From Spinacia oleracea (taxonomy: Eukaryota > Streptophyta > Magnoliopsida > Caryophyllales > Amaranthaceae), in assembly GCF_020520425.1 (NCBI RefSeq), contig NC_079492.1:620001-684000 (forward strand): 64,000 nucleotides of DNA, read 5' to 3'. Below are positions 38,776 to 60,583 of the stretch, in pieces; the first letter of the stretch is position 1, and the number at the start of each line of letters is the position of its first letter. The position numbers were made by a program, and so were the translations under genes. The notes beneath the pieces are model-generated. The model did no database searches. It saw nothing but the letters and a program-made list of their open reading frames with translations, and was not told the DNA's origin.

Positions 38776-38950
38776 CTTCCCTTCAAGTGCGGGTTATTTA
38801 GTAAATTGGCAGCACTTGAGATCACTAAAAAAAAAAGAAAAAAATACATTATCACAAGTGCGGGTCATTATAGAAAATTGGCAGCACTTGAGTTTAAGTG
38901 CGGGCTTTGAAACTCAAGTGCGGGCTCATTTCACAAGTGCCGCACAAAAG
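38776..38950 (+). repeat. CACTA left subterminal repeats
   Basis: CAAGTGCGGG occurs four times (about 38784, 38857, 38895 and 38914), alternating with GGCAGCACTTGAG, with the two words acting as partly complementary halves (AAGTGC / GCACTT). These are the expected binding sites for the element's TnpA-like protein. Confidence 0.8.
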
Positions 38951-40880
38951 TTTCTAAAATTACAATTGCAAAAAAAAAAGACAATTCTAAAATTAAAGAA
39001 GCCTCATCTTTCTATCCCTGATTCTTCTCCCTCTTCACCTTCGTTTTCTCGTCGTCGTCGCTTCCTCACTGCCAAACCTCTTCGTCGTTGCGTAGTTGTT
39101 CATGGATGTTGTAGGGTTGATTGTTGCAGTAGCTCCACCCTCCATCTCACTTGTCTCTGCGCTCTCCCTCGTCTCCAGTCTGTACCGCCGCCGCCAACGG
39201 TGGTCCTGAATCCAATATCAACTAGGCAGAGATGAAGAATGAACCAGAATCTTCGAGTCGCCCTAATTTGAAGAAATCGTTCAACTATCCTGGTGAATTC
39301 AAGTTGCCCATGTAATTCCTCTTTCCCTCTTTGTGATTTAATCTACGTTTTAGTTTCAATTCATCTGTAGAATTCAATTCCAATTCATCTATAGATTTCC
39401 CAGTTATCAATTCACCAATTTCTGCTTAATTATTCAATAAATTATCAAACGAATTTCTATTGTGCTAAAGAACTAATTCAGTCCCAAATATAAAGAATTG
39501 GGTTTTTGTTTTTTAACTTTCTTATAATTATTTGTGCAGAATTATGTTGAGTGTCAATTTGATTATCTTTTCTTTCTTGAAAATTAGTTGATGACTTCAC
39601 ATTAAATTATGCATTATTCTTTATGGAGTAGCAATCAAAATGCTCGTTGAACTTAATTGACAGTGTAATACACCTAGCAGGCTTCCCTAATTGAATTGGT
39701 TCATTCTTAGGAAGCAAAAAGTTCATTTGTTAAGAACAACAAGTTAATTGTGATTGTTAAGGGACACGAATCAAAATCAGTTTGGAATTTCATCTTCCCA
39801 GCTGAACTTGTCCATTTTTTCTGGTGTCATATTATGCTTTTCAGTTGTCATGATTTGATATTTAAGAATATTTCAATTCAAAACCCATATGTGTCTTCAA
39901 ATTGTATTTTTGGGACGCTTCTGACTGTTTTACGCTAGTTTATGTCTGGACTGCTGCTATTGTTTACTGCTCTAGTTACTAATGTTGTTGTTTACTGCTG
40001 CTGCATACTGTCTGCATCTATTCTGAACAGCTGCTGCTGCTCTTGTGCATCATTTTATGCGTCACCAACATTGGTGCTTCTTTCTTTAATGATGCACGTC
40101 TCATATCAGCAAGTTCATTTGGGTGGTAGTCTACAGAGCCATGCAGTGTTGCAGCAGCTGGTGTGGGTGTTTAGGGCCGAATTGTGCTTTGTTCTGGTCA
40201 GCAGTAGAAGGATGTTGGGTGTTGGTTATAGCTGGTTGCTTAAACTCAATTGCAAGTTTGCAATGCTACCAGAAAAAGGGTCTTTAAAGTTAGATGTCGC
40301 AAACGCATAGCTGCTGATTGTTGAGGTTTGGTAAGAGTTGACCTTGGTTGACTTTTTCTAATATGTTGTTTGGTCTGTTGTGTCTGATCTGCACTGTTGT
40401 GTTATACATATCTGCTTTTCTACTATTGTTCTACTTCTAGGGTTTCTGTTTCTACCCTTTAAAATCCTTGCAATCTTATATGCTGCAGTGCCGATTCAAA
40501 AGCAGATTGTTGCAAACTCTGTTGTCCAAATGATTATTGCGCTGGCATTCATAAAGATTAGCTTGATTTACGTGGAGCTTAAGAAGATTCACGAGGTTAG
40601 TTATTTGTGCATTTGTTTCTTGTCATTTTTTATCCATGATTTCAGTCACTTGTTCTCTTTCTTATAGTTTAAGATTGTTCCATAAGTTGACATTTACTTT
40701 TAAAAACCCATGCTGGGAAAACTTTGAGCTTCTTGGTTTAAAAGTTGGTCTTTATTTCTTAGAGTATCCTATTAGATGGATGGAGCTTTGTAACTTTTCA
40801 TGTTTTTTTCCCCGTAACTACAATGTTTGGTAGCTAGTACAAAAAAGCTCAGTTCACAATTGTTGTTCTAATCTAGTGAA

Positions 40881-40980
40881 CTGAGTTTGTGAAATGAAAG
40901 ATCAGATCCGAAGCATCAGATCAGAAGCATGCTTGTGAACTGATCTGCTTTGGATCGGATCTTTCAGTTCACAAACTCTG
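40881..40980. repeat. GATC-rich inverted repeat (hairpin), 41-44 bp arms
   Basis: Arms 40881-40924 (CTGAGTTTGTGAAATGAAAG...) and 40940-40980 pair with a few mismatches around a 15-nt loop. Related words (GTGAACTGATCTG, GATCAGTTCAC) continue to about 41180, so this is a cluster of alternating-orientation short repeats in an intron of the CACTA-borne gene. Confidence 0.8.
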
Positions 40981-41726
40981 TTGCTGCTTCTGATCCGTTC
41001 TTCATTTCTGTTGCGAGAAGATCAGAACACTCACAAATGACTACTTCTTGTGTTGAACTATAGACTATTACATACTGAGCATTTCTTGTACCGATCTGCT
41101 GTACTGATCAGTTCACCAGATCAGAACAGCAGTTGTGAACTGATCTGCTGTGAACTGATGCCGCAGATTTGTTGTGAACTGATTCTGGGATGGTGAACGA
41201 AAGTCGTAGCATTGATTGTCACTTATTGAGGTTGGATGCCTAATCTCTGTCTTTTTGTAATGACTGGATTTCATGGTAATATTGTTGTCTTTTTGTGACA
41301 TGATGCATTAAGTTTTTATTATTCACTTTTTGAACCATTTGACAAACAGGTCAGATCTCTTTTCGGAGTCTCAGAGGATTCAATAAACAATCCAAACCCG
41401 AACCCGGGGTATTCCAGATGCTCGCACATATCTTTTGGCTTTGAAGGAGATACGACTCAAGTATGTGTACAATACTAAATGTTTTCCTTGCTGTTGTAGT
41501 ATCTCTCTACCCGTACACATTTTACATGAGCTATTGGATATATATTTATATATATATAAATTTCAATTAGCCATTAATCTTATCTAGTTCAGCTATGCTA
41601 AAATCTGTCTGCATTTTTCTGTTTAGGGTAACAAGCTGGTTGACATTTTTCTGTTTAGGGTAACAAGCTGGTTAACATGGTTCATATTTCTTTTGTGCGA
41701 AAGCTTTATCCATCTTACACAATCTG

Positions 41727-41778
41727 CAATCTCGACAAGGCGATCATCCACTAGTGGATGATCGCCTTGTCGAGATTG
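41727..41778. repeat. Perfect 52-bp palindrome
   Basis: Two 26-bp arms (CAATCTCGACAAGGCGATCA...) meet at CTAG with no spacer, in the centre CCACTAGTGG. It lies inside a putative exon, where it adds an in-frame TAG and changes phase between NLDKAIIH and VDDRLVEIVV. Confidence 0.95.
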
Positions 41779-42074
41779 TTGTATCAACAAATCAAGAACT
41801 TCGTTTTCTTTCTATGCAAGGTAGATGTTTCCAACCAGTTATCATATTTCGTAAAGCGCAAAGCATGCATGTTCAATAAATTGAAAAAGTTCCAACTTGA
41901 CACTTTTGTTTTTTTTAATGTACTTTGCTTTTGGTTGGTAACATCTTACTCTTTTTTCTCACGGGTTCTATAGGTGTTTGCATGACATCTTCGCTATTTG
42001 GTAAATATGAAGATGGGGACATCGTGAATAAGTTACAAGAGATGTATGAGGTATATGGAATTTATCTATATCTA

Positions 42075-44030
42075 TTTAGGTAAAAGGTTTAGTATATCTA
42101 TTTAGATTCATTCGTTAAGAGTTAAGAACGAAAACGACAATTTTAGTCAAAATAATGACATATAACAATCAAACGACCCTTAAATGTGCATAACTTGACC
42201 AAATTAGGTAATAATGAGAATTATAAACATAAACCTAAGTATATTAAACATGTAAAAGGTTTGGAATATCTATTTAAATTCATTAGTTAAGAACTAGGAG
42301 CAAAAACGACAATTTTAGTCAAAATATGACATATAACGATTAAACAACCCTTACATGTGTATAACTTGACCAAACAAAGTAAGAATGAGACTTAGAAACA
42401 TAACACCAAGTATGTAAAACATGTATATGGTTTCAAATACCTTTTTAGGTTCATTAGTTAAGAGTTAGGAAAGAAAACGACAATTTTAGTCAAAATATGA
42501 CATATAACGATCAAACGACCCTTAAATGTGCATAACTTGACCAAATTAGGTAAGAGTTAGACTTAGAAACTTAAAGCCATATATGTTAAACATTTATATG
42601 GTTTGAAATACCTTTTTAGGTTCGTTAGTTAAGAGTTAGGAGCGAAAACGACAATTTTAGTCAAAATATGACATATAACGATCAAACGACCCTTAAATGT
42701 GCATAAATTGACCAAAATAGGTAAGAGTAGGACTTATAAACATAAAAACAAGTATGTTAAACATGTGTATGGTTTCAAATACTTTTTTAGGTTCATTAGT
42801 TAAGAGTTAGGAGCGAAAACGACAATTTTACTCAAAATATGACATATAAGGATCAAACGACCCTTAAATGTGCATTACTTGACCAAAATAGGTAAGAATC
42901 AGACTTAAAAACATAAAACCAAGTATGTTAAACATGTATATGGTTTCAAATACCTTTTTAGATTCATTAGTTAAGAGTTAGGAGCGAAAACTACAATTTT
43001 AGTCAAAATATGACATATAACAATCAAATGACCCTTAAATGTGCATAACTTGACCAAAATAGGTAAGAATCAGACTTAGAAACATAAAACCAAGTATGTT
43101 AAACATTTATATGGTTTCAAATACTTTTTTAGGTTCATTAGTTAAGAGTTAGGAGCAAAAACGACAATTTTAGTCAAAATATGACATATAAGGATCAAAC
43201 GACCCTTAAATGTGCATTACTTGACCAAAATAGGTAAGAATCAGACTTAGAAACATAAAACCAAGTATGTTAAACATGTATATGGTTTCAAATACCTTTT
43301 TAGATTCGTTATTTAAGAGTTAGGAGCGAAAACTACAATTTTAGTCAAAATATGACATATAACAATCAAACGACCCTTAAATGTGCATAACTTGACCAAA
43401 ATAGGTATGAATGAGACTTAGAAACATAAAACAAGTATGTTAAACATGTATATGGTTTCAAATACCTTTTTAGGTCCATTAGTTAAGAATTAGGAGCGAA
43501 AACGACAATTTTAGTCAAAATATGACATATAAGGATCAAAAGACCCTTAAATGTGCATAACTTGACCAAAATAGGTAAGAATGAGACTTAGAAACATAAA
43601 AACAAGTATGTTAACCATGTATATGGCTTCAAATACCTTTTTAGGTTCATTAGTGAAGAGTTAGGAGCGAAAACGACAATTTTAGTCAAAATATGACATA
43701 TAACGATCAAACGACCCTTAAATATGCATTACTTGACCAAACTAGGTAAGAATGAGACTTAGAAACATAAAACCAAGTATGTTAAACAATTATATGGTTT
43801 GGAATACCTTTTTAGGTTCATTAGTTAAAATTTAGGAGCAAAAACGACAATGTTAGTAAAATTATTACATATAACGATCAAACGACCCTTAATTGTGCAT
43901 AACTTGACCAAATTAGGTAATAATGAGACTCATAAACATAAAAACAATATGTTAAACATGTAAAACGTTTAGAATATCTATATAGGTTCATTAGTTAAGA
44001 GTTTGGATCGAAAACGACAATTTTATTCTT
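42075..44030 (+). repeat. 171-bp tandem array, 11 copies plus a partial
   Basis: The word ACGACCCTTAAATGTGCAT or a near variant occurs every 170-173 bp from about 42174 to 43884 (11 times). Each unit also holds GCGAAAACGACAATTTTAGT, AAATATGACATATAACGATC and TAAGAATGAGACTTAGAAAC. Units are perhaps 85-95 % alike. The array fills most of the last intron of the CACTA-borne gene. Confidence 0.92.
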
Positions 44031-44484
44031 TATTTCATTGGTATGAGCAAATTAAGTCTTACTTTATTTTACGATACAATATTTATAATATAACTAACTA
44101 AAGTATACATATATTTTTTTTTATTGTCAATCTTCGTAAGGTACTCAAAAATTCGAGGGAGGAGCCTTTCACGATTGAAGAGATAAATGAAGTTCGAGAA
44201 AAGTTGGCAAACTTCATTTCTAGTGATTGTCTTTGATATTTTCTTGTAGTGAATTTTAGTATTGTTTTTGATATTTCCTTGTAATGAATTTTAGGTTACG
44301 GATGCTAGTTTTTTATGACTGTTATGTAATCGAGTTTTCAACTGTACAATTTAATTATCTATATAATTGGGTACTTTTTTATAAGATGTATGGAGGTTAA
44401 CTAGTGGTGTGGTCCAATTATATAAAATATGTGGCAGGAAAATAGGATATATAACAAATACGGCTCGTTTATAGGCTCGTATAT

Positions 44485-44900
44485 ATATCACAAGTGCGGG
44501 CTCATTCCCAAAATTGGCAGCACAAAAGTTGTCAAGTGCGGGCTCATTTACAAAATTGCCAGCACAAAGTTTGTCAAGTGCGGGCTCATTTTAAAAATTG
44601 GCAACACAAAAGTTGTCAAGTGCGGGCACATTTAAAAAATTGGCAGCACAAAGTTTGTCAAGTGCGGGCACGTATTCGAAAATTGGCAGCACAAACTTTG
44701 TCAAGTGCGGGCACGTATTCGAAAATTGGCAGCACAAAGTTGTCAAGTGCGGGCACATTTTCTAAATTGGCAGCACAAAAATAGTTTTGTGCGGGCTCAT
44801 ATATTGGCAGCACTTGAGAAATGCCAAGTGCGGGCAGGCCATGTGTTGCACATGTAAAAGCCCGCACTAAACCCCTTAAAATGAGCCCGCACTTGAGGTT
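44485..44900 (+). repeat. CACTA right subterminal tandem repeats, about 43-bp unit
   Basis: About nine units of CAAGTGCGGGC(T/A)CATTT plus AAAATTGGCAGCACAAA follow each other from 44491, then the word inverts (GCCCGCACT) near 44862 and 44884 close to the end. Denser than on the left, as is common in CACTA elements. Confidence 0.85.
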
Positions 44901-45738
44901 TTTTCCTCTAGTGATGTATGATTTCATTCACATCGATGAGAAATGGTTCTATCTTACACAAAAAAGTCAAAGAGTTTATTTTGCAAACAATGAACCATTT
45001 CCACACAGGAAGCGAAAATCAAGAACTAAGATTCCAAAGTTCATGTTTATGGCAGCAGTAGCAAGGCCAAGGTGGGGACAAGATGGGCAGTGTGAGTGGG
45101 ATGGGAAACTTGGTATATTTCCATTCACAGATGCAGTGGCAGCAAAGAGAACATCCAAAAACAGAGTGAAGGGGACAATTGAGACTAAACCAATCAAGTC
45201 AGTGAATCAGATTGCAACTAGGGCCATGCTAATCAACTACCTAATCCCAGCAATTAAAGAGAAATGGCCACCACATGAGGGGGAAAGGGTGATATACATC
45301 ATTCAAGACAATGCAAAGGCACACATTTTGCAAAATGATCAAGAATGGCAGCAACATTACAAGCAAGATGGCTTCACATTGATATTGACTCAGCAGCCAG
45401 CAAACAGTCCAGATTGTAACATATTAGACTTGGGGTTCTTTAGGTCAATTCAATCACTAATGCACAAAAAGATGCCTAAAACAGTTGAAGATTTAAGTGG
45501 TGCTGTGACTGAGGCATATAATGAACTGCATGCAAAGACTCTATCTAATGTGTGGATGTCACTTCAATATGTTGGAAATGAAATTTTGAAACACAAGGGG
45601 GACAACAACTACCAACTCCCACACAACAAGAAAAAGATTTTAGAAGATGAGGGAAATCTGCCAGAACAAGTTAAGGCCCCAAGGTGGGCTGTGAATGAAT
45701 GCAAACAACTTGTTGATGAATGGAGAGCAAATCAGTGA

Positions 45739-46376
45739 AGTATAGAGCAAGAACGAGAGATTACTTTTTGTGTTTTGGGAACATGTTTTAAAAGTTACAA
45801 GAACAAACAGAATGTCACTTTTGTAAGCTTGAATGAAAGCATCACATGTATTTAAAACATTTTGGAAGCAACATATCAACTGGAAGAATGAATGAATCAA
45901 TTTATTGTTGTTAATCTTTAGTTTTTGTTCATCATACTCACATATTTGTAGTTATTCATGTACATTGCATATTAACATATGATTTCAGGATAATTCAAAA
46001 TCATAAGGGAACATGTACATTGCATATTAACATATGATTTCAGGATAAGTCAAAATCATAAGGCAACAATGCACAAGGCAACATGAACAAGACAGCATGA
46101 ACAAGGCAACAATAACTAGGCAGCAATGCACAAGGCAACAATAACTAGGTTATCACAATCATAGTTTAGTTTTTGTTCATCATAATCACAATCATGTTTA
46201 TTATTTCTAGTTGTAATTGAAACACAAAACATCAATTGAATGAGTCAGCCATTCCTTAAACCATGAAGGGGACATCTTTATGTTTTCAAGGCAACACATG
46301 AATTCATTTTCAAGCCAAGGCAAAGCATGGGGACATGTTGTTCTCAGTTTGTATGTGTTCATCATCATTGAATCCT
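45739..46376. other. Mariner 3' flank, short repeats, no gene
   Basis: After the transposase stop there are two direct copies of CATGTACATTGCATATTAAC...CAGGATAA (about 45957 and 46012) and a short-period CAAGGCAACA(A/T) array (46070-46150). No coding sequence is seen. Confidence 0.5.
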
Positions 46377-46473
46377 AAACTTTAATATCCTCCTCCCAAA
46401 TGGAGTGAATGACTAACACAAACAGAAATGGGAAAGGAAAGTCACTCCATTTGACAGAGGATACTGAAAGTGT
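46377..46473. repeat. Hairpin H1
   Basis: Arms 46377-46413 and 46441-46473 pair imperfectly (AAATGGAGTGA opposite TCACTCCATTT, with ACTTT and TATCCTC blocks), loop about 27 nt. The first of a series continuing to 58560. Confidence 0.75.
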
Positions 46474-46510
46474 AGGAAACTCAGGACATGCAAAATCACA
46501 ACTCCGAACA

Positions 46511-46584
46511 CATCGACTTCAAAATGGAAAGAATGCATATCACATCATTTTCAGATGGAATTTCTTCCCACTTTGAAACCGATG
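46511..46584. repeat. Hairpin H2
   Basis: Arms 46511-46532 (CATCGACTTCAAAATGGAAA...) and 46563-46584 pair with 4 mismatches; loop 30 nt. It is paralogous to H3 beyond the copia insertion, including flanking words TATGCAAAATCAC-like and GATGCGTCAA. Confidence 0.75.
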
Positions 46585-46600
46585 CGTCAAAAGATGTAAT

Positions 46601-47989
46601 TGAAGGAAATAATGCCCTTGGTCCAAGTATGCATTCGATGTTAAGTCTAATAAATGCGGTTCAGTATTAATTAACAAGTTAATAATTCAGTGAGATCAAG
46701 TGAGCTGAATGCCTAGCTAGAGGCCGCTTCAGTTCAAGTGGAATTAATGATATTAATCCACAGCTTACTCTTGACTGAACCCGTAGGTTCACACAAATAG
46801 TACGTAAACGGATCAAGTATTTAATGGCATTAAATACTCCATCTATGGATATTCGGAATCGACGGATCTTGGTTTCAATGGGAGCTGAGATCGTCACAGG
46901 CAAGAAATGAATACTCCGGAAACGATGATATTGCCGGAAACGGAAATATGGATCGTATCGGAAATATAAATATTATCCAAGTCGTAGATGTTGCCGGAAA
47001 CGGAAACATGGTACGTATCGGGAAATATTATCGGAAATAGAAATATTGCCGGAATCGGAAATATTGCCGGAAACGGAAATATTGTCTGAATCGGAAATAT
47101 TATCGGAATCGGAAAATAATTCCGGAAACGGAAATATTAAATATTTGTTCGAAACGGAAATAAATTCCGGAATCGGAAATGTTAAATATTGTTCGTATCG
47201 GAAATGAATTCCGGAATCGGAAAATTAATCGGAAGCGCGTCGTACGAATTAGCATCGGACGAGCTTGCTAGACGAAGGCCCAGCACGAAGCCAGGCCCAC
47301 GTCCAGCAAGGGAAACGCGCGCCACAACACGCCAGCCCAAGGCTGCGCCAGGCCCACCGCAAGGCAGGCCCACCGCGCGCCCAAGGCTGCGGCAGTCGTG
47401 GGCTGCGATGCTCGGGCTGTGCGCGCGCGCGCATGGCGCCCCTCGTGGGCTGTTGTGCGTGCGTGGGTGTTTGTGTTCACATACGAAACCTAAAACGTAC
47501 AGGATTCGTTTAATGATTAAATTCCTAATTCTATTTGATAAATTAATTAAATAAGAGTTTCATTAGGATTCTAATTTTAATTAATTCTTATCCTAATAGG
47601 ATTCCAATTCTCTTTCCATACCCCTATAAATATGTGGCCTGGGTTCACAATTTATAACGAGTATTCAAGTATTCAAAGTGAGTTTTTGAGAGAAAAATTC
47701 AGTCACATTCCTTGCTCAATAGTGCCGAAAATTATTAGTACCTTAAGGGCGATTCTAGTTGGTCAATCTTAGAGGCGGATCCGGACGTGCTGTGGACTAT
47801 CTACGGAGGGACGACACTTGGAGTCCTAAAGACTTGTTCTTGTTCGGTTCGGGCGCAGCTAGGGAAGGCACGCAACAAAGAGTATGCATCTAAACTATGC
47901 TATATGATTATGTGTAAATAATATGTATTTCTGGCTTAATGGTTGTTTCCGCATGATTTATGAATTGTCATATGTATCATAACCTAATA
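46601..47989 (+). repeat. 5' LTR of the copia element (1389 bp)
   Basis: Modules: U3 start, CGGAAAT/CGGAATC array (46905-47235), GC-rich block (47250-47470), CCTATAAATATG TATA-like box (47623-47634), then R-U5. Frames seen inside the GC-rich block on both strands recur in the other LTRs and are not credited. Confidence 0.92.
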
Positions 47990-47990
47990 G

Positions 47991-48004
47991 TGGTATCACG
48001 AGCC
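47991..48004 (+). other. Primer binding site (initiator Met tRNA)
   Basis: TGGTATCACGAGCC, one base after the LTR boundary; same variant as in the element at 1-4446. Confidence 0.85.
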
Positions 48005-48724
48005 TCTTATTATTTTCATAATCTAAATTGCATGAACATGGTTAAATATTACAAATTTGCAAGAATTAAAAGGGGTGATTAATTTTCGTAATTGTTAATT
48101 AATTGCAAATTGCGTTTATTTAATTATACGTACGCAGTTTTTCGGCAGTTTCTTCGTTACTCATCCAAATCGAGTGATTTTTGTGTCCATTCCGCATGTA
48201 AAAGGCATTCTAAAATTTTGACAAAAAAAAGATTTTTCTGCCGAACCCAGAATTCTCAAATTCGAAGCCTAACTATGACTTTTCGAAGGTTTTAGTTTTT
48301 CGAATGCAAAATTTCGTAAATTTAAGATGTTAAATTAAATATTTGCGATTCTTGTTGATAAATCTTGAATTTTTGATTGACCTACTGTATATGTTTAACA
48401 AGTTTGAATGCCTAGCCTTGTTAATTATGCAATCTAATTTGTAATTATGATTAATTTGTTGAAAATTAGAATAATTTAGAATTAATTTGATTTTCATAAT
48501 TAATTGTAATTTAATTAGATACCTATGATTAAAAACCACCATAAAAATTGTAAATTTATGATAAATTTTAAATTTTTATGACCTAGACTTGAATCCATGT
48601 TAATCGGAAATCAATTGAATAATAAATTTTCGATTTTTCGCCCTAAAATTATGAAATTAATATTATTTATTAATTTGTCCTTAATTTTAAATATAAATTT
48701 TTTAAATTTTATGCGATTCGTTCA

Positions 48725-49385
48725 TATAACTTGCACGCACAAAGCAAGGGACGCTACGTGTTACCCTTAAGGGGTGTTGTATAGTGCGGGCATGTGACGA
48801 CGAGCAAGGGAGCTCGTCGCCCATGCGGCACGAATGCAATGAGCAAGGCCATGGTGCACGAGCACAAGGCAGCAGCCCTGCCTTGTGTCGTGGGCTATGA
48901 GCAATGGACGAATGGGCGAGGGCGAATGCAAGGCACAGCAGTCGCGTGTGGGCAGCAAGCGAGTTGCGCCACAACGCGCACTGCCTCGCGCAAGCGCACG
49001 CAACCTCGCGCGCAGCGAGCGCAAGCTCGCGTGCCACGAGTGCTGCGCCCAGCGTCGATGCCTCGCGCATTGAGCGCTGGCTCGCACAAGCGAGCGCTGG
49101 CGAGCGCGCGCAGCGAGCGCTGGCTCGCATCAAGCGAGCGCTGGCGAGCGCGCACAGCGAGTGCTGGCGAGCGCGCACAGCAAGCGCTGGCGAGCGAATG
49201 CAGCGAGCGATGGCTCGCGTGCATCGAGCGCTGGCGCGCGCGCAGCGAGCACCAGCTCGCGCGATGGCTTGCGAAGGAAAGCAGCAGTAGCTATGCGACG
49301 CAGCGCATGGGCTGCGCGCACATGGCCAGCGATGGCTGTGTGCGTGTGGCCCATGGGCGTGCGATGCGTAAGGTTGTTGCGTTAC
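48725..49385. repeat. GC-rich, self-complementary block in the copia leader
   Basis: Built of words such as GCGAGCGCTGGCGAGCGCGC and GCAGCGAGCGATGGCTCGC in tandem and inverted order. It corresponds to 1655-2290 in the other element but its internal repeat pattern differs, so it evolves quickly. It yields long stop-free frames on both strands by composition. Confidence 0.85.
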
Positions 49386-52300
49386 GATTAGATCGTTTTG
49401 AAATTTTAAATTTTCAGTTTACGTAATTTTAATTAATTTTAAAATTAATAATTTAAATTATTTTCTTGGATTTTAATTTTGAATATTGTAATTATAATAA
49501 ATTTTATTTATTCTAATTATTTTACTAAAATTAAAATCATGAATTAATTTAAATACGACTGAAATTAAATTAAACTTTTTGGATTCAATTATAAATTTAT
49601 ATGAGCTTTAAATTTTAATTAAATTTGTATGTTTCCGGTTAGACTAGAAATACATTTTTATGTTTAAAATTAGTAAAGCATATGAATTTATTGGTTTAAG
49701 TGGGAGCCCTTTTAGTCATAAACTCTTGATTAGGTCTACAAATCCTTAAGGTTAAAACAACTTGATTCGAATTAATAAGGACTGAATAATTGGTACATTA
49801 TTGGTGCCCTTGATTAATTACTGCAAATGTTTACGTGATGCATAATGTGTTTAACTAACCAGCTATGTGGGCCATTCATGATAATGAATGGGTGAATGGT
49901 ATATATTGTATATGTACTGTTTTGCAGGTTATGAAGTGACTAGTATGGCCCAAATAGGATAGAAAATATGGTCTGCGTACCATTAATTTGAATGTAATTG
50001 GTCTAAAGTACCAAAGTTGTTTTTCAATTCAAATATGGTCTGCGTACCATCAAATAGTTGTAATTAGTTTTAATTATAGCTTATCCTATTTGAAGAAAAT
50101 GGTGCCTCCCACGGAGATTTTCAAGACGGACTTTGAAGTTAAAGCTTCAAGATGAAGTCGGGCCATACTAGATCACATTTATCTTATGCATGTTTTAAGT
50201 TATTTATTGCTTTTAAATATGTCTTAAAATGCATGAGATCAAAAGCTTGATTATGTTGCATGATTAAAGATTTTAGTTCACTTAAAATCTAACCAACATA
50301 GTAAGAGCCTTAAGTTCCAAACTTAAAAAAATTGAGTTAAAAGGTGCCATGCCAAAATATACACTTGCTTGGATATCCTTTACATCAATCTAGTAATAGT
50401 TTTCGCTCAGCGAGGTGTTACTTATTGGTCCTAAAGGGGCAAGGTACACAAATAATTGTGAGTACATGTTAGTTTTGGTGAAACTCAACGATATAAGTAA
50501 AAGTCCTTTTATGTCGTGGCAAAATCGATAGGTTTACCTAATAAGTTCTTAGACGTACCTATCAACCAAGAATAGTTTCTAGACTATTAGCAAAAGGCTT
50601 TTGCTTACCTAAGATGTTTTAGGATTAAGTCGACAAACTGTGCTTAGTTCTTCAATGATTTTAGGATCTTGGAATCATTTTATTCACACCTGTCGGAACA
50701 CATAATTCGAATAAAATGCTAATGACTTGTTTGAATTGCATGGTTGCTTTAATTTCAAGTTATTATTCATGATAAATGTTTAGACTTTGCATGCTTCAAT
50801 GAATGTTTTAATTATTGTTTATAATTAAATATCTTGTACTGCAGTAAATCCTTTTAGAAAGGTAACAGTAAATTTCCTCGATTGGTAGTGAATCCAAGAA
50901 CGATTCACGGAAATGAGAGAAAGTGAGCAATTTAAAATGTACGTTTCTTATAGCGACTTTTATGGTTGTTTTCGAATATCAAAGTCGAATGGCAAACCAA
51001 TTGGTGCTTGTGAATTCAAAATACACTGTAGTTTTGAGATCATAAAGCATTGAGTCTAATACGCTCAGCTTTACGAATAGTTAACAACCTAATATCTTTG
51101 TCCATTTAATTCTCGAATGAGTCTAGTCCCTAGACATTCGAATAGATCGATGCTTAGAGAACTTTAGAAGCTTCTGGTAAGATCATCTAGTTGAAACTTA
51201 ATATTCAACATAAATTAAATGTTAAGAACCTTGTTGGGGTGACATTGGACATGTCTAACAAAGTATAAAAGTCAACACTAAAGAATTCAATTCTTAAGAC
51301 TATAAGAAAGGGTACAAGAAATAGGAAAACGAGGAACAAATGAAAGGAATTTACGATTCCGTTTCTACCTATAAGTTTATGTTTAAAGAGAAGTGACCTA
51401 GCAATCAAACTTCCTTGGTATCATATACCGCTTGAGGTTCTTACTTCGGTAATAACTCAAACAATGGAAGCTAGGATACACTAATGACCTACAAGTGGGA
51501 AATGAAGCATGGCAATGCTACATTAGTTGTAGGGTCATCTAGTTTGTTTTAAGTCCTTTCAAAGGCTGGAACTTAATGGCTATTTTGTTCCATAATCAAC
51601 ATACCTAAATTTCTGTTTTCAAACACAGAAAGACTCACATTCAAGAAAAACAAAAACAATGTTTGTTTGTTTATTTGAATGAATGGTCAATTACAGGTTG
51701 AGTCAATATGCTTGATTAAAACAAACAACTCTTTAAAGAACTTTACTAGGTTCAAATCAACCCCTTGATTTGAGTTCCACTAATCTTTGGCATTGTTGCT
51801 TAGACCATATTAACAAGTTAACATTCAAAAGCTCTATTTTGATGGACTTTTGAAAGTTGATTGATTTCTAGATCATTTTAAGACAACTAGTCTTACTTGT
51901 TGAAAGTAACAAAAGATATGAACTATTGTTAGAACGCCTAGACAATAGAGTTCAAAGCTAAAGAAAGATTTTATGACTTTATTATTTCACACAGATTTGA
52001 GTGAATATAGGTTTATTTACTCAATGTGATATAAGTTTGAATCTGTTTGGCTAGTTCAAAGATTCAGAAGTATAAATCCACTTGGCAAGAAATCATAAAG
52101 ATCTAGGTTAGATCATGTTGATGATTACTTGAGACCAAATATGATCATCAATGATTGTGTGGTGTAATTTCACAATCTAGGTCCATAAGATATGGCATAT
52201 CTTAGTTGGAATAATCGAAGTCAATTAGTACTTGATTCGATTAATGATGAATCATAAAGACTTTTCCTATAATTTCTAAAACAAAATGCTCAACTACCAC

Positions 52301-53090
52301 CAAACTAAACCAAATTCGTCAAAGCTATTGAAAAGTAATTTCAGAATAACTTTTCATAAAATATATCTAGAGAGTTGCAAAACTCAGTGGGAGCTTAGTG
52401 TTTGTCATTCGACAAACTAAGGCCCAAGTATAGATATATGTTTCATTGTGATTTATTCAAATGAGACACAAGGGTATTGTTTCTACCACGAATTTTTGAG
52501 AACATAATGTTTGTTTGCTCGAAATAATGTCCTTTTGGAGATTCGTTTCCAAAATGACAAGTGGGAGAAAATAGACCTCGAAAGTCTTCGAGGCGAGCAA
52601 CAAACATAAACGGACATTCCGGAGGCTTTTCGAAGTGCTTCAGAAAATCCGAACTTATTCTTTAAGGACTTTAGAAGTGGCTTTAAAGAATAGACATCTC
52701 TTAGAAGACTTTACAAGTGCTTCAAGGAGAACAGAATATTCAAAGGACTTTCAAGTGGCTATTGATATTCTATTGTTTGATGTTCTATACCCTAGTAGGC
52801 ATAGAGTTCAACTCACTGGAACTATGAGATTCTTCTATTAGATAGTGAAGAAACATGGAGTTCGGGTCATTGAAACTATGCGATTCTTCCATTAGATAGT
52901 GAAGAAACCTACAACTTGCAGTCAAACTATTATCATGTAGATTAATGAGTTTGTGACTTGTAAGAAAGCTATGACGAAACCCAGATTCCCTAAAATGGTT
53001 AGAGGCCATATATAGACTCAAATGTTTTAAATGGTTAGAGGCCATAAAACATACTCAATGTTTTGATGACAAAATTGAAATTTTGTTGAT
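49386..53090 (+). other. Copia leader and unrecognisable gag/integrase remains
   Basis: Up to about 50220 the sequence is colinear with the other element's leader (3' of its GC block to near gag), including TGGTCTGCGTACCAT repeated at 49969 and 50036. Beyond that no reading frame of gag or integrase can be followed; stops occur in all frames. Confidence 0.6.
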
Positions 53091-54460
53091 TTGCAAGAAT
53101 AGTTTCACACCTATTGGTTGCAAGTTTGTTTTAAGGATAAAAACCATCAAACATGAATTGTGTTCACACACAAATCTAGATTAGTTGCTAAAAGTTACAA
53201 GCAAATTCACGATGTGGATTGTGTTGAAACCTCATGCAAAATCGTAATGCTTCAAGTCTATAATTCAAGAAATGATTGCATATTGGTAAATATGGCAATT
53301 GGATGACAAAAGTATTCCTCAATCAAATGTTGGAATAAATTATGTACATGGCATGTCATAGGATTTGTGGATCCAAATAATGCTTGAAAAGGAAAGCTAG
53401 CTTATGAAATCTAAGTCCAGATTTAAGCAAGCAATTGGGAATTAGAACTGTATTTTAGTGAAGCTAATAAGTATTTTAGTTTCATAAAATGTACATGATT
53501 CTTATAGATATATAAGAAGTTTAGTGGGAGTACATAAAACTTAATTGGTCCTATGTGTATCACACACATATCTCTCTATTGTGAAATAACATTCAAATGC
53601 TAAATACTTAGATTTGAGATTATTCATCAATGACGGACCAAGGCGAAACTTAGTACATACTGGGTATTAAGATCTATTTACAAAGATCTTATGATATTGT
53701 TTTGGATTAAGTAAATGGCATTTACTAAATCAAACACGAAAGTCTCCATTGGAGATATTCGACCCATGTGAATAAATCTAATTAAAGGATGTTTGAACTA
53801 TGTATAAGCATTTACTAAGTTAAACATCAAAGGATCTAAATAAGATTCTTAACCTATATTATATGTCAAAGAATTTAGCTGGATTTAGTATCTACTGAAA
53901 CTAGATAAGCTAAAGTTACATGAATAGAATTCAATTGGGAATTATTCTGCAAAAGAATTTATCATGTATGATATAATATGAGGATCGCCAAAAACGTATC
54001 GTATGACTTTAGCCATGACGAACATATACCAATTTCTATTGATCTAAGTAAAGATCAACTAGATTGAGATCAAGAATACTTATGGTACTTGAAAAGGTAC
54101 ATAGGAATAGTTCTTGATTCAAGGAAATAAAGATATGCTAAATATTGATGCTACACGCATAAACACTGGCAAAGGATCAAGCAAGACCCTTTGGAGTTAA
54201 CCATTGATAAGGACGAGCAATAGAGCATCGTGTTTTGAAAATGGAAACATGGGTTGGAGACCATGAGTTGTTGCGTGGGAAATTAAAATAATAATTTCTA
54301 TGTTCTAAGATATAGTTGGAGAGTCTTCCACATATCTATGAACTGCTTGGATAGGTAAATCCAAACAAAGCATCACTAGCAACCTAAACAGTTGAAGTAA
54401 AAGTACTTATTGCCTAAAAAGCAATAAAACAGGGTTGTTTATGTTAAAGAGTTCTTCACT
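53090..54460 (+). pseudogene. Decayed copia reverse transcriptase / RNase H
   Basis: Across changing frames one can read remnants of the copia RT order: a GCKFVFRIK-like segment near 53110, a VAK.YKQIHDVDCVET-like segment near 53185, a GFVDPNNA segment near 53360, LGIKIYKD-like near 53665, and near 54390 an EVKVLIA stretch followed by a stop, in the place of the RNase H active-site region. These are recognisable from known copia RT/RNase H patterns but broken by many stops and shifts. No protein can be made. Confidence 0.65.
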
Positions 54461-55614
54461 GAACTTGGGAAGATCACCTATCTGCTGGCTTGATGGTTCT
54501 TCATTGAAAAATGCGTAGAACCACTCTTGAAGCAAGAAAAAGGTCTGCTAACTTGATGGTTCTTCATTGAGAAATGCGTAGAACCACCATTGTAGCGAGA
54601 AAGACTAGATCACAAAATAAACATACTCAAAAGATCTTATCATCTATCTCGAAGAACATTCGATGAAAAGGATATTAAGATTGGCAAAGCATGATAACTA
54701 AACCTATGCAACAAGTGAGAAGCAACACTCACGTTGTAGCACTGGAAATCAAGCATAGCTTTGAATTCCATGAAATGTTTTAAAGATGGGTTAGAGGCCC
54801 ATGGTTGTAAAACATTGGGGTTGAACATTTATCATATATGAAATGTATTTTCATATTCCATTTAATCTTGGTTTAGTATTAAATGATGAGTCCCTTCAAT
54901 TTGACAATATATTCAAGATAGACTGTCAGGACCAGTCCTGTGACTAAGAAATGTCTATCAAGTGAACTTGAATGTCAAAGGTTGAAAATGGTCCCTAGTC
55001 GGAGTTTTCTATAAAATTGGACGCATAGAAAACGTTAGACGACTAGAATGCAAGATGACTAGTAGTTCTGTTTCTTGAACAATGTGGACATGGCAATGTC
55101 ATAATCATTTGCATAGATACTTACTTTGGGAAGACTAGTATCGGACAAGACCTATGAAACTTTACTGTAAGAGATGAAAATCTGTCATAAGTAAATTTCA
55201 TTAAAATTATTAGACACTAAATCCTCAATACCTGAGTGATTTGAGATTACTTGTTTGAGAACTGGTTGCTTTGACGTTGACCAACCGTCGCACCGTAAAA
55301 GGAGGCTATAAAGGCAACGCTCAGGTAATCACCTATCAAACGAAGTCTAATCTCAAGATCGCAAGATTGGGATTGTCCTCCCATAAATCGGGATGAGATG
55401 CTTAAAAGTTGTACAAGGCCACTCGGAGAGCTAGAAACTGTGAAATGCATGGCCGTGCTCGGATGAATCATAGGCTATGATTATCTGTTTATTTGATCAG
55501 TTGAACTCTGAAACCGAGGAACACCTCTGGACATAATAAGGATGACAACTCTTACCTTATGTTCAAGAGCAAGCATCGAACGACAAAGGAATTAGGAAAT
55601 GCACACTTGTCCCT

Positions 55615-55631
55615 AAGGACAAGTGGGAGAC
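55615..55631 (+). other. Polypurine tract
   Basis: AAGGACAAGTGGGAGAC directly before the 3' LTR, the usual plus-strand primer site of copia elements. Confidence 0.75.
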
Positions 55632-57019
55632 TGAAGGAAATAATGCCCTTGGTCCAAGTATGCATTCGATGTTAAGTCTAATAAATGCGGTTCAGTATTA
55701 ATTAACAAGTTAATAATTCAGTGAGATCAAGTGAGCTGAATGCCTAGCTAGAGGCCGCTTCAGTTCAAGTGGAATTAATGATATTAATCCACAGCTTACT
55801 CTTGACTGAACCCGTAGGGTCACACAAATAGTACGTAAACGAATCAAGTATTTAATGGCATTAAATACTCCATCTATGGATATTCGGAATTGACGGATCT
55901 TGGTTTCAGTGGGAGCTGAGATCGTCACAGGCAAGAAATAAATACTCCGGAAACGATGATATTGCCGGAAACGGAAATATGGATCGTATCGGAAATATAA
56001 ATATTATCCAAGTCGTAGATGTTGCCGGAAACGGAAACATGGTACGTATCGGGAAATATTATCGGAAATAGAAATATTGCCGGAATCGGAAATATTGCCG
56101 GAAACGGAAATATTGTCTGAATCGGAAATATTATCGGAATCGGAAAATAATTCCGGAAACGGAAATATTAAATATTTGTTCGAAACGGAAATAAATTCCG
56201 GAATCGGAAATGTTAAATATTGTTCGTATCGGAAATGAATTCCGGAATCGGAAAATTAATCGGAAGCGCGTCGTACGAATTAGCATCGGACGAGCTTGCT
56301 AGACGAAGGCCCAGCACGAAGCCAGGCCCACGTCCAGCAAGGGAAACGCGCACCACAACACGCCAGCCCAAGGCTGCGCCAGGCCCACCGCAAGGCAGGC
56401 CCAGCGCGCGCCCAAGGCTGCGGCAGTCGTGGGCTGCGATGCTAGGGCTGTGCGCGCGCGCGCAAGGCGCCCCTCGTGGGCTGCTGTGCGTGCGTGGGTG
56501 TTTGTGTTCACATACGAAACCTAAAACGTACAAGATTCGTTTAATGATTAAATTCCTAATTCTATTTGATAAATTAATTAAATAAGAGTTTCATTAGGAT
56601 TCTAATTTTAATTAATTCGTATCCTAATAGGATTCCAATTCTCTTTCCATACCCCTATAAATATGTGGCCTGGGTTCACAATTTATAACGAGTATTCAAG
56701 TATTCAAAGTGAGTTTTTGAGAGAAAAATTCAGTCACATTCCTTGCTCAATAGTGCCGAAAATTATTAGTACCTTAAGGGCGATTCTAGTTGGTCAATCT
56801 TAAGGCGGATCCGGACGTGCTGTGGACTATCTACGGAGGGACGACACTTGGAGTCCTAAAGACTTGTTCTTGTTCGGTTCGGGCGCAGCTAGGGAAGGCA
56901 CGCAACAAAGAGTATGCATCTAAACTATGCTATATGATTATGTGTAAATAATATGTATTCCTGGCTTAATGGTTGTTTCCGCATGATTTATGAATTGTTA
57001 TATGTATCATAACCTAATA
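55632..57019 (+). repeat. 3' LTR of the copia element (1388 bp)
   Basis: Near-identical to the 5' LTR with the same modules; followed by the target duplication GTAAT. Confidence 0.92.
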
Positions 57020-57152
57020 GTAATATTCGAGTTACTAAATCATTTCATCATTGAACAACTCAAAAAAACAAGGCCATGAGCAAGGCAGCAAAGGCAAGGT
57101 ATTTACTTACAACATACTTAGAAAGTCATATGCAAAATCACTTCTCTAAACA

Positions 57153-57226
57153 CATCGGCATCTAAGTGGAAAGAATGCATATCACATCATTTTCAGATGG
57201 AAAATCTTCCCACCTAGATACCGATG
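57153..57226. repeat. Hairpin H3
   Basis: Arms 57153-57174 (CATCGGCATCTAAGTGGAAA...) and 57205-57226 pair with 3 mismatches, loop 30 nt. Paralogue of H2; the loop ATGCATATCACATCATTTTC is conserved between them. Confidence 0.8.
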
Positions 57227-57347
57227 CGTCAACAAAAGTAAATTTTGATATGCTTAAACCAATTCATCATTGAACAAAGCATGAAGAAGAAGGCATCAAG
57301 TACATAGAAGCAAGTACACACAACCATCTCAGAATGTCCCCAAGCAT

Positions 57348-57443
57348 CCCTCACACAAACCCCATCCACCAACACTTAGCTCCTGAGAAGCATTATTCAT
57401 GCTAATGGCGCATGAGTGTTAATGGAATATAGGGTTTGAGTGT
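57348..57443. repeat. Hairpin H4
   Basis: Arms about 57348-57383 and 57408-57443 pair imperfectly (ACACAAACCC opposite GGGTTTGAGTGT; CAACACTTAG opposite CATGAGTGTT). Upstream GAATGTCCCCAAGC and downstream GACTCATCATAGATG are also shared with H8 and H10. Confidence 0.6.
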
Positions 57444-57566
57444 CAGCAAATGAAGACTCATCATAGATGACTCAAAACAAATAACAAGGCAGCAATGGAC
57501 AAGGCACAACAATCTCAGTTAGGTTGATTTACAGCATATATGTAGTATGTTTCTAAATTTTAACAA

Positions 57567-57653
57567 CCTCATCACCCTTTCACAAAAGGGATTACATGAT
57601 CACTTCTTTGTTTTTGAAATGAAATTTATCCCCTTTTGTAAAAGGGGACGAGG
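57567..57653. repeat. Hairpin H5
   Basis: Arms 57567-57590 (CCTCATCACCCTTTCACAAA...) and 57630-57653 pair with few mismatches, loop 39 nt. Confidence 0.8.
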
Positions 57654-57803
57654 GAATATGTTAGAAACCAAAATCTAAGATAATCAACAATTACATCACA
57701 GATCACAATGATCAAACTCACACATGGGACATTAGCAAACATTAGGGTTCCAATCTCAGTGTTGTTGAATAGCATCATTGATCTATTGTATCAATATTTT
57801 CTC

Positions 57804-57896
57804 AACTTTAACATCCTTTTGCCGAATGGAATGATTGATATTCACTACTGATCATGTGAAATGACAATCACTCCATTAGACAAAAGGAGTTAAAGG
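57804..57896. repeat. Hairpin H6
   Basis: Arms 57804-57837 (CTTTAACATCCTTTTGCCGA...) and 57865-57896 pair with few mismatches, loop 27 nt. Resembles H1 in word order (CTTTAA, TCC, AATGGA.TGA). Confidence 0.8.
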
Positions 57897-57989
57897 ACAA
57901 GTATTGAAACATAAATCTCAGGATATCAACCTTTAACATCATTGATTATCATTAACACCACAATCAAACATGTTGTTTAAGTGTCATGG

Positions 57990-58074
57990 TGGTCCTTCCA
58001 AAGGGAATTGACAAATTGTGAACTATCGCATTGGATATTTAAAAATAAGTCAATCCCCTTTGAAGGACCACCTA
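57990..58074. repeat. Hairpin H7
   Basis: Arms 57990-58014 (GGTGGTCCTTCCAAAGGGAA...) and 58051-58074 pair almost fully, loop 36 nt. The most stable-looking of the series. Confidence 0.85.
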
Positions 58075-58135
58075 ACTAACAAAAGTGAAACATGCATGAC
58101 ATCAAAATTCATCTCAGATGTCCCCAAGCATCATT

Positions 58136-58230
58136 GAAACAAATTCAACCTACACACACTTAGCGCCTGAGAAGCATCATCACTGATACTAATGGCAGCA
58201 CGAGTGAGTGTAGGTAACTTGAATTGTTTC
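58136..58230. repeat. Hairpin H8
   Basis: Arms 58136-58167 (GAAACAAATTCAACCTACAC...) and 58194-58230 pair with small bulges. Flanked by ATGTCCCCAAGC and GACTCATCATCGATG as in H4 and H10. Confidence 0.7.
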
Positions 58231-58318
58231 TCAGCATATGAAAGACTCATCATCGATGTAACATACAAAGGTACTTAAGGGGACAACTAACCTCTAAGTA
58301 AACAAGACATGAATTGCC

Positions 58319-58400
58319 TTTCTGGTCTAATGCCAGTTTATATGTGACGGAATCAATTGAATTGTTTCCAAAGACATTTAAACTGGCAAAGGATCAAAAA
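58319..58400. repeat. Hairpin H9
   Basis: Arms 58319-58345 (TTTCTGGTCTAATGCCAGTT...) and 58374-58400 pair with 5 mismatches, loop 28 nt. Confidence 0.75.
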
Positions 58401-58465
58401 GCCAAAACAAACCATGCTCATTTTGGTCTCAGATGTCCCCAAGCTTCATTGAAGCACACCATGTT

Positions 58466-58560
58466 CACAAACCATTAGCACACAAAAGCTTCAAACAGCC
58501 AAAGGCTGGATGCTAATGACGCACTGTGGTTTATGAAACATGGATAGTTTCTCAGCACTG
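58466..58560. repeat. Hairpin H10
   Basis: The left part CACCATGTTCACAAACCATT and, around 58527-58560, GCACTGTGGTTTATGAAACA plus TGG are complementary with bulges. Same flanking words as H4 and H8. Confidence 0.55.
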
Positions 58561-58962
58561 AAAGACTCGTCATAGACCTCATTCAAACCCTAACATCACA
58601 GACCAAGCATTCAGGAAAGGCAAACAATAAGAGGGGACTTTAATGAAACTGTTTTTTTCCAATCACATGTTAAAATTTTATTCATAAACCCATCCCATAT
58701 GCTTTCACCCCTCTCAAGGCAACACTAATCAACCAGCAAACATATCACAGTTTCAACGGGCAACATTTTTAAACCAGAATAGAGGACATGAATACACTCC
58801 AAACCCTATAACATCATCAACAAAACAACAACACCCCTTGCCAACAACAGATCACAGTTGTTGGCTACTCCACCTTATGTCTCCACAGCTAACCAGCAAT
58901 CCAAATATAATTAAAAGAGGGTTTATAGAAGACACACTTATCTCTAAGCACCATCAACACCC

Positions 58963-60251
58963 TTAGGTGGCTTTTTTTTTTATTTCATCTTCCTTCACGT
59001 TTGGGGACGAAATCGAACATTGCCCATCAGAAACCTCTGGACCAGCAGTTGTGTTCTCACACTCACCCACATAGTATAGGTCGAATGAATCAGAGTGATT
59101 GGGTTCCTTGCAATCAAGAGGGGACATAAAATATGTTTAATATATTTCACATCATCACATACATTCATGGGATTTATTATTTAAACTGAACAAGATCATC
59201 ATAAAAAGATCAGGTCACAAGATCATCATACGAAGACCATCATACATGTCTGAACTGAACAACATCACCAAAGAACAACCACGGGATTCAACATGCAATT
59301 TAAAGAACATGCAACATGCAACTGAACTAGATCAACTTAACAAGATCAAAGAACAAAATCATCAAATTAATCGTGGAATTGAACATCCAAATCAACCAAA
59401 ACAGACCAACATTCATGGTATTTAACATGCAATTTTAAAAAAGTCATAAAATTCGAGAAAAATCAAGGGATCTCTGACATGCAATTCGAAAACTTCATCA
59501 TTTAACCAAAAAAATCAAGGGATCTCTGACATGCAATTCGAAAATTTATCATTTAACAAAATAAATCAAGGGATCTCTGACATGCAATTAGAAAACTTCA
59601 TCATTTAACAAAAAATATCAAGGGATCTCTGACATGCAATTCGAAAACTTCATCATTTAACACAAAAATCAAACATTTTTGGGACATGCATGATGAAAAA
59701 AAATGAACCAATGTTAAATCTAAAAAAATTCACAAAAATCATCAACAAATGAAAAAAAATCACTAAAATTCACAAAAAATCACAAAAAATCAGAACATGC
59801 AGAGTAACCCTAATTTTATTAGAAAACCTACGTTTCAACCAAAAATCACAGATTTTCTCCAAGAAACACAAAAAATCCCAAAAACAGAGTAAACCCTAAT
59901 TAACTCGAAAAATCAGGAAAAAAACCCAAAAATAAGGAAATATACCTCATCAGATTCGTCTCCTCCAAAGAATCTCAGATCTGCTGGTGTGGGGACTCGA
60001 TCGTCATATTTGGACTCCACCTCTTCACCAGGCTCCACTTCCATTTTCTCAAACCAAGCTTTGAGATAATTTCGGGTACTCGTGTTCTCCTTCTGGGCCA
60101 ACCTCAAATTATTCAGATACTCGCCAGAATACGAGTGCTCGTTGTTGGAACAAATGCATTTCGAGCCCCAATCACAGTTTGGGTCAGGAATTCGTTGCCC
60201 AGAAGTACCAACCGAATAACTCGGAAGATATTTGGAGGAAGAGGATCCCAT
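58963..60251 (-). CDS. Second gene of the mariner-like element: two-exon, 149-aa protein of unknown function
   Basis: Exon 1 is 60251-59946 (102 codons) ending GATGAG at a GTATAT donor. Exon 2 is 59106-58963 after TTGATTGCAAG, phase 0, ending at TAA. The protein starts MGSSSSKYLPSYSVG, which fits an N-myristoylation signal (Gly2, Ser6, Lys7). Residues about 24-36 hold three cysteines (NCDWGSKCICSN), followed by a helical KENTSTRNYLKAWFEKMEVE segment and an acidic C-terminal half with a Lys-rich end. I do not recognise the family. It faces the transposase gene, sits inside the right terminus, and has its own promoter-like sequence. No lesion is seen. Alternatives: a captured host gene or the first exons of a longer transcript that runs on into the hairpin region. 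Confidence 0.55.
59462..59665. repeat. Four-copy tandem repeat, about 51-bp unit, in the intron
   Basis: AAGGGATCTCTGACATGCAA followed by TTCGAAAACTTCATCATTTA recurs at about 59466, 59517, 59568 and 59621. Confidence 0.85.
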
Positions 60252-60576: not shown

Positions 60577-60583
60577 TTTATAA
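60577..60583 (-). promoter_or_regulatory. TATA box and CT-rich leader of the second mariner gene
   Basis: On the minus strand CCTTATAAACC is followed by a pyrimidine-rich leader (60575-60480, CTCTCTC runs), the usual plant TATA plus Y-patch arrangement, about 320 bp before the ATG at 60251. The start site would lie near 60550. Confidence 0.5.

Follow-up and report, generated by a model that had tools for sequence, protein, structure and literature searches.

Introduction

In rice, CACTA elements are reported to harbor miR820, a repressor of OsDRM2 that in some species co-evolves with its target site (PMC3459959), and trans-species small RNAs of the parasitic plant Cuscuta are described as showing a three-nucleotide period in their variation across conserved coding sites (PMC6917502). 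Here, we analyze a 64,000-nucleotide stretch of the spinach genome (Spinacia oleracea; contig NC_079492.1, positions 620,001 to 684,000 of the forward strand; hereafter the window, with position 1 as its first letter) in which a mariner-like element carries ten hairpins in series. On the evidence of its sequence, this array appears to join miR820-type features with, in one hairpin class, variation of the Cuscuta type. The reading that we prefer, and consider reasonably probable, is that a primary transcript of the minus strand supplies foldbacks processed like plant microRNA (miRNA) precursors and that the product of one hairpin type, H6, lowers GMI1, a host gene of chromosome maintenance that encodes an SMCHD1-like ATPase (GHKL-type with an SMC hinge). 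Such an arrangement would suggest a transposon using small RNAs to turn down a host gene.

The likeness to miR820, as that system is described, is of a plant DNA transposon whose miRNA-type foldback matches a chromatin gene of its host. In the present case, the foldbacks lie within an identifiable transposon family, and the H6 and family-2 arms are nearly complementary to a host-gene site. Unlike miR820, which resides in a CACTA element and targets a methyltransferase, the spinach array occurs in a mariner, comprises about ten serial foldbacks with an open reading frame (ORF2) on the same strand, has a GHKL-type ATPase with an SMC hinge as its predicted target, and is described in the sequence of one genome. 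The likeness to the Cuscuta system, again as described, is variation of the synonymous type, found here in the H1/H6 class; the parasite is an intragenomic one, a transposon rather than a plant, and its hairpins are clustered in one element. Few cases have been worked out of how transposons counteract silencing by the host, and the question is open; miR820 is the closest case that we met. If our reading holds, an array preserving a host chromatin gene's codon pattern over many hairpin copies would be evidence of an intragenomic arms race, and it would point to GMI1/SMCHD1-type proteins in plant transposon control.

The element shares with plant mariners of the Soymar/Osmar type the start of its terminal inverted repeats (TIRs), CTCCCTCC, a TA duplication, and a D..D39D transposase; no mariner of that type is known to us to combine a hairpin array with a further gene on the strand opposite the transposase. 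Plant polycistronic MIRNA loci also hold several foldbacks on one strand, whereas here a many-copy transposon family, known from sequence alone, carries the array. No earlier report of such an array, and none of six 16-nt strings from the predicted mature sequences, was found in the text covered by an open-access literature search. Three short strings are absent from the main text of a spinach small-RNA library paper (PMC9029227), and a spinach transposon survey lists Tc1-Mariner elements with neither "hairpin" nor "miRNA" in its main text.

Results and discussion

A hairpin array that reads on the minus strand

The original prediction described about ten pre-miRNA-like hairpins in the mariner. 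All ten are present where it placed them (Table 1), and the outcome that it named as damaging, folding energies no better than shuffled sequence, did not occur on either strand. Folded as minus-strand RNA, the hairpins have energies between -40.7 and -63.2 kcal/mol, with z between -3.2 and -10.4, and 0/200 shuffles were as good for each of them; on the plus strand z ranges from -3.1 to -7.2, with 0/200 shuffles as good for nine hairpins and 1/200 for H4. Energy is lower on the minus strand for 10/10 hairpins and z is more extreme there for 9/10 (H8 is the exception). One correction to the original prediction is that the minus strand is the one on which the array reads. Each of the ten is a foldback with a well-paired 20-24-nt duplex, as expected of a MIRNA locus. 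The arms had been given as 22-37 bp; the hairpins stand, but in the minus-strand consensus folds each stem comprises 28 to 42 pairs. Of the recurring types, H2 shares 86% identity with H3 over 112 nt, and ATGTCCCCAAGC is common to H4, H8, and H10. A search of Rfam gave 13 weak matches, none of which reached the gathering score (a curated family is not required for a new one), and a search of a plasmid collection gave no match.

Opposed bases that fail to pair by Watson-Crick rules are strongly biased on the minus strand. G.T exceeds A.C by 26:2 in the window and by 49:10 with two diverged copies, L033 and L034, added, as counted over 32 hairpins that were chosen by minus-strand energy and whose arms were aligned by Watson-Crick pairs only (G-U forbidden). 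A G/U-rich minus strand alone predicts ratios of 1.7 (hairpins), 2.3 (spacers), and 3.0 (ORF2 intron side). Tested against hairpin and spacer composition, respectively, the excess has P ~3e-4 and 4e-3 for the window alone, and 5e-4 and 0.016 for all 59 oppositions. Because G-U pairs make the minus-strand fold stronger, in excess over composition, the functional form of the array is most likely minus-strand RNA. Inverted repeats inside a DNA transposon might instead act as DNA, in the form of transposase-binding or cruciform sites. We find this scarcely credible: DNA pairing is strand-blind and leaves both the one-strand excess of G.T over A.C and the codon pattern of the arms unexplained.

Pairing is conserved among copies. 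Consensus folds of eight hairpin groups, with rows below 60% identity to the consensus dropped (H1/H6 from 44 to 37, H5 from 12 to 11), contain 285 pairs on the minus strand and 221 on the plus strand. The proportion of paired cells is 96.6-98.6% on the former and 95.4-99.4% on the latter, and G-U cells number 751 and 133, respectively. Two-sided changes occur in 17 pairs on the minus strand and 14 on the plus strand, as raw counts without a shuffle control; a lack of compensatory substitutions among copies, the second outcome held to be damaging, was therefore not encountered. One paired position occupies all four Watson-Crick states (A-T 33, T-A 7, G-C 5, C-G 1) among 65 hairpins, although 14 of them, including H6 of the window, are unpaired at it. 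In this tally duplicate loci are skipped, three "G opposite G" rows (L038 among them) are apparently loop mis-hits, and two rows are partnerless. Divergence between the window and L033 is 0.050 at paired positions and 0.101 in spacers (compared from H4 onward); between the window and L034 it is 0.103 and 0.159 (compared from after H5).

A codon pattern in the H1/H6 arms

Across families, the plus-strand (target-sense) sequence of the H1/H6 arm reads by eye as TTY AAY ATH YTN YTN CCN AAY GGN, or FNILLPNG. Among variants present in at least two loci, 17/25 codon-variant pairs are synonymous in one frame, a result equaled by 0/1000 column shuffles. With more families added, the shuffle results are 0/1000 and 2/1000 (this test, like the first, was run both with and without single-locus variants), and in a further run with more families they are 1/2000 by fraction and 17/2000 by count, single-locus variants of the window's family being excluded. 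In the variant and codon tests, L006/L031, L027/L033, L029/L034, and L001/window are the same places counted as two loci. The H7 arm reads VVLPKGI in many variants, and its 32-nt arm gives 57/2000; the H2/H3 test is borderline (32-83/1000).

GMI1 as a candidate target

The degenerate FNILLPNG pattern has 231 matches in the genome (894 Mb, with the window on a chromosome of 151 Mb) and 0 in a reversed control; 100 are listed, on C1-C3. The first five places opened comprise four elements and one host exon, at C3:5580700. This is exon 1 of GMI1a, in a gene named GMI1 by homology (P0006, SMC flexible hinge domain-containing protein) that has a paralogue, GMI1b, at C3:5796488-5796835. If a non-A base is required after GG, a condition meant to exclude element copies by their next base, the FN.LLPNG pattern occurs at three places in the genome, namely GMI1a, GMI1b, and a single copy of the element, against 0 for the reversed control. 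Under the same requirement, a wobble-tolerant pattern of the H6/family-2 guide, at one position looser than G-U pairing alone, has a single genome site, in GMI1a exon 1 (control 0).

Over 23 nt, the H6 arm and GMI1a disagree at two bases, both tolerated as G-U, and an L056 variant, by eye, has one wobble-tolerated difference in 23; the H1 arm, with four G-U-tolerated differences and one mismatch, is a poorer fit. The H6 penalty against GMI1a, 1.0, was reached by 0/200 shuffled arm sets, where shuffled sets held at most 12 variants and the observed value drew on all variants (18 for H1/H6); the comparison covered 1103/1705 aa of GMI1a. A search of Pfam and PDB with the GMI1 exon-1 peptide gave no match.

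Two explanations accept the hairpins as small-RNA sources or their relics and assign the GMI1 site no present role. Plant inverted repeats often yield small interfering RNAs (siRNAs), and long, near-perfect stems make good Dicer substrates. The hairpins could accordingly be inverted repeats giving 21-24-nt siRNAs against the element itself, for self-silencing or as a host-favored trap, with a coincidental match to GMI1. This account predicts neither third-position variation of one arm nor a host exon as the sole site of the wobble-tolerant pattern, and we rate it as rather unlikely. Alternatively, these may be young MIRNA-like loci that arose when the transposon took up part of GMI1 as an inverted repeat and spread it along with itself, leaving a record of ancestry and no present regulation. 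It would fit the diverged family L035, in which a single ancestral LLP[N/K]G hairpin seems, by eye, to link H1, H5, H6, and perhaps also H2/H3 and H7, and the restriction of the host site to one hairpin class. However, similarity to GMI1 falls away outside about 23 nt (by eye), and pure decay would neither keep changes synonymous nor spare paired positions; we hold this account to be unlikely.

Two observations concern the surroundings and relatives of GMI1. A DMS3-like gene, recognized through a fused quinoa record (P0009), lies directly downstream of GMI1a (L041, about C3:5597484), and partial GMI1-like exon-1 copies, with 53% identity over 45-50 aa, occur at C3:110814751 and C3:110857775 (L044 and L045).

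A proposed minus-strand transcript

According to our preferred reading, regulation of GMI1 by H6-type products, the minus strand of the mariner would contain a second transcription unit with a promoter near the right end, ORF2, and then about ten foldbacks. The transcript would serve as a polycistronic primary microRNA with foldbacks cut by Dicer-like enzymes, and the H6 3'-arm product, together with its kin in other families, would pair with GMI1a exon 1 at the FNILLPNG codons and lower expression. Reduced GMI1 may favor the transposon by looser silencing or by altered repair of excision breaks. Mammalian SMCHD1 is described as acting in gene silencing and at double-strand breaks, and a silencing or break role of this type could be relevant to a cut-and-paste element. 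The array presumably grew by hairpin duplication; arms of the H1/H6 class would have varied chiefly where the target motif allows synonymous change, with self-complementarity kept, while the remaining hairpins would have drifted or been redirected to other targets. The polycistronic small-RNA locus carried by a transposon, one of several readings offered by the original prediction, gains support at the level of sequence. More tentatively, the array might be a multi-barrel counter-defense in which one class tracks the synonymous codons of GMI1 and others, perhaps H7 with VVLPKGI, track further, unnamed host genes.

A TATA-like box (by eye) lies on the minus strand near the right end of the element. 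ORF2 consists of two exons on the minus strand near the right end of the element and has a predicted length of 149 aa, and the hairpins lie downstream on the same strand. Its protein has two matches in Spinacia oleracea, 97% and 72% identical, and the annotated spinach protein P0001 (155 aa) is almost identical with a different end; a search of Pfam gave no match. Omega for exon 1 is 0.31-0.34 in the comparison with L034, where ORF2 contains a stop, and 1.1 in that with L031, on five changes. The ORF2 intron contains a 52-bp tandem repeat (59408-59717). The position of the array, downstream of ORF2 on its strand, would also suit a role in the 3' untranslated region of ORF2, either as a structural RNA or as an element that affects translation or stability. 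With the number and order of hairpins differing between families and the codon pattern left unexplained, we regard this as highly doubtful.

Several results weigh against regulation of GMI1 by the array. There is one clear host target, many hairpins lack a codon pattern, and the robust pattern is confined to H1/H6: codon tests of H4, H5, H8, H9, and H10 are not significant, wider H7 arm windows show none (989/1000, 896/1000; 692/1000), and H7 has it only in a 24-nt core picked afterwards (4/2000 by fraction, 199/2000 by count). The arm frames were spotted by eye ahead of testing. Even in H1/H6, the Cuscuta-type variation at synonymous sites of the target frame is weakened when single-locus variants are kept, with 19/61 pairs synonymous and 48/1000 shuffles as good (2/1000 by count). 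As to pairing, the G-U excess is in part base composition and the counted hairpins were pre-picked by minus-strand energy, and H6 of the window is unpaired at the third position of the Pro codon, as are 14/65 hairpins. As to targets, the other arms score at or near shuffle level against GMI1a, the weak signals being H4_a3 (5/200) and H5_a5 (6/200) at the same site, then H4_a5 and H1H6_a3 (13/200 each). Host sites with GGA would escape the non-A searches, including any among the 131 FNILLPNG matches beyond those listed. Genome pattern searches recognized no host site for H7 or H2/H3 (H4, H8, H9, and H10 were not searched genome-wide), and none of the four matches to the H1 guide pattern (reversed control 1) was shown to be a coding exon.

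Candidate sites for the other arms

Among these H1 matches, L061 belongs to a copy of the element, L060 lacks such a hairpin at the site and is flanked by in-frame stops on both sides, and the remaining two are low-complexity and unopened. The H2/H3 guide pattern has 12 matches, three in element DNA (window, L002, and L050) and nine judged by letters alone. For H7, the VVLPKGI pattern occurs at 10 places, of which 8 were opened and all 8 lie within hairpins (L035, L052-L057); a further search gave 60 places, with those outside retrieved loci judged by letters alone. The LLPKGI pattern has four matches: the site of L035 itself, C3:64362326 with the same letters (unopened), and L058 and L059, which are chance-like and have no strong hairpin.

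Three pairings with GMI1a were rejected or left unsupported. H5 resembles the codons of PHHSFTK (3 mismatches in 22, against 6 in the antisense control); we reject this candidate because L035 suggests an LLPKGI frame for H5 and because, by our estimate, the score could be reached by chance over 16 arm sets. A match of H9 apparently spans an intron boundary and is likewise rejected, and the proposal of RSSSNWK for H2/H3 is unsupported, with 5 mismatches in both the match and the antisense control.

The element, its relatives, and nested insertions

The array region has at least 156 matches in the genome; 40/313 candidates were scored, such that copy numbers are lower bounds. Copies of the window's family are 95-99% identical, and the same hairpin kinds, altered in number and order, recur in the diverged families L033, L034, L035, L037-L039, L046-L051, and L052-L057. 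Some kinds only are found in L047, L048, and L050, and L052-L057 are of the H7 type. A second, numerous mariner family is represented by L038 and L039, each with one or two H6-type hairpins and an arm of TTTAACATTCTTCTGCCGAACGG or TTTAACATTCTTCTGCCGAATGG; 33 pairs of its TSASKWK sites lie 353-356 bp apart among 100 matches listed of 335.

Both the window element and L031 have TIRs and a TA duplication, as in plant mariner-like elements. L031 is a copy without the two insertions of the window element and measures 6.95 kb. The transposase combines a helix-turn-helix with a DDE domain whose triad, IDEKW / QDNAKAH / D, has a spacing of 39 by our count on the translation. In Pfam it matches HTH_24 (25.9 bits; cut-off 21.9) and, below threshold, HTH_Tnp_Tc3_2 (16.3 bits; cut-off 31.5) and DDE_3 (17.6 bits; cut-off 28.6); omega of its C-terminus is about 0.18 against L033 and L034. 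The window copy is dead because its transposase has an in-frame stop on top of an insertion. The array had been described as interrupted only by a young copia between H2 and H3. That insertion is present, and the element is additionally cut by a CACTA-type insertion (Table 1).

Table 1. Features of the mariner-like element in the window (positions are those of the window; ends of the CACTA and copia insertions were read by eye)
Feature	Position	Strand	Remarks
Hairpin H1	46360-46495	-	
Hairpin H2	46501-46595	-	
Hairpin H3	57120-57258	-	
Hairpin H4	57326-57468	-	
Hairpin H5	57548-57668	-	
Hairpin H6	57780-57917	-	
Hairpin H7	57967-58095	-	
Hairpin H8	58123-58270	-	
Hairpin H9	58298-58420	-	
Hairpin H10	58442-58588	-	
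Predicted 21-nt guide, H6 3' arm	57806-57826	-	Putative register; against GMI1a exon 1, two G-U pairs and a mismatch at one end
H1 arm, homologue of the target-like part of H6 (FNILLPNG)	46381-46403	+	
H7 arm stretch reading VVLPKGID	57989-58012	+	No host site recognized
TATA-like box	60577-60583	-	By eye
ORF2 exon 1	59946-60251	-	102 aa
ORF2 exon 2	58963-59106	-	47 aa and stop; by-eye prediction
Mariner-like element	37389-60840		TIRs CTCCCTCCATTTC / CTCCATCCGTTTC; TA target duplication; about 6.9 kb minus its two insertions
Transposase, N-terminal part (helix-turn-helix)	37927-38751	+	In-frame stop 38074-38076
Transposase, C-terminal part	44917-45738	+	Catalytic D...D39D, counted by eye on translation
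CACTA-type insertion	38752-44913		ATG target duplication; interrupts transposase; left end by eye
Young copia-type LTR (long terminal repeat) insertion	46601-57019		GTAAT target duplication, by eye; between H2 and H3, not part of the array

The N-terminal part of the transposase contains two DLN-type motifs, PDLNEV and FDLNMP, which we take to resemble EAR repressor motifs. At the right end of the CACTA insertion, positions 44468-44802 hold 42-bp tandem repeats (CAAGTGCGGGCTC...), with inverted copies close to the tip. Elsewhere in the window, open reading frames at 28926-29900 and 33387-34307 include domains of the B3 DNA-binding and SWIM zinc-finger types, the latter being a frequent component of Mutator-like transposases.

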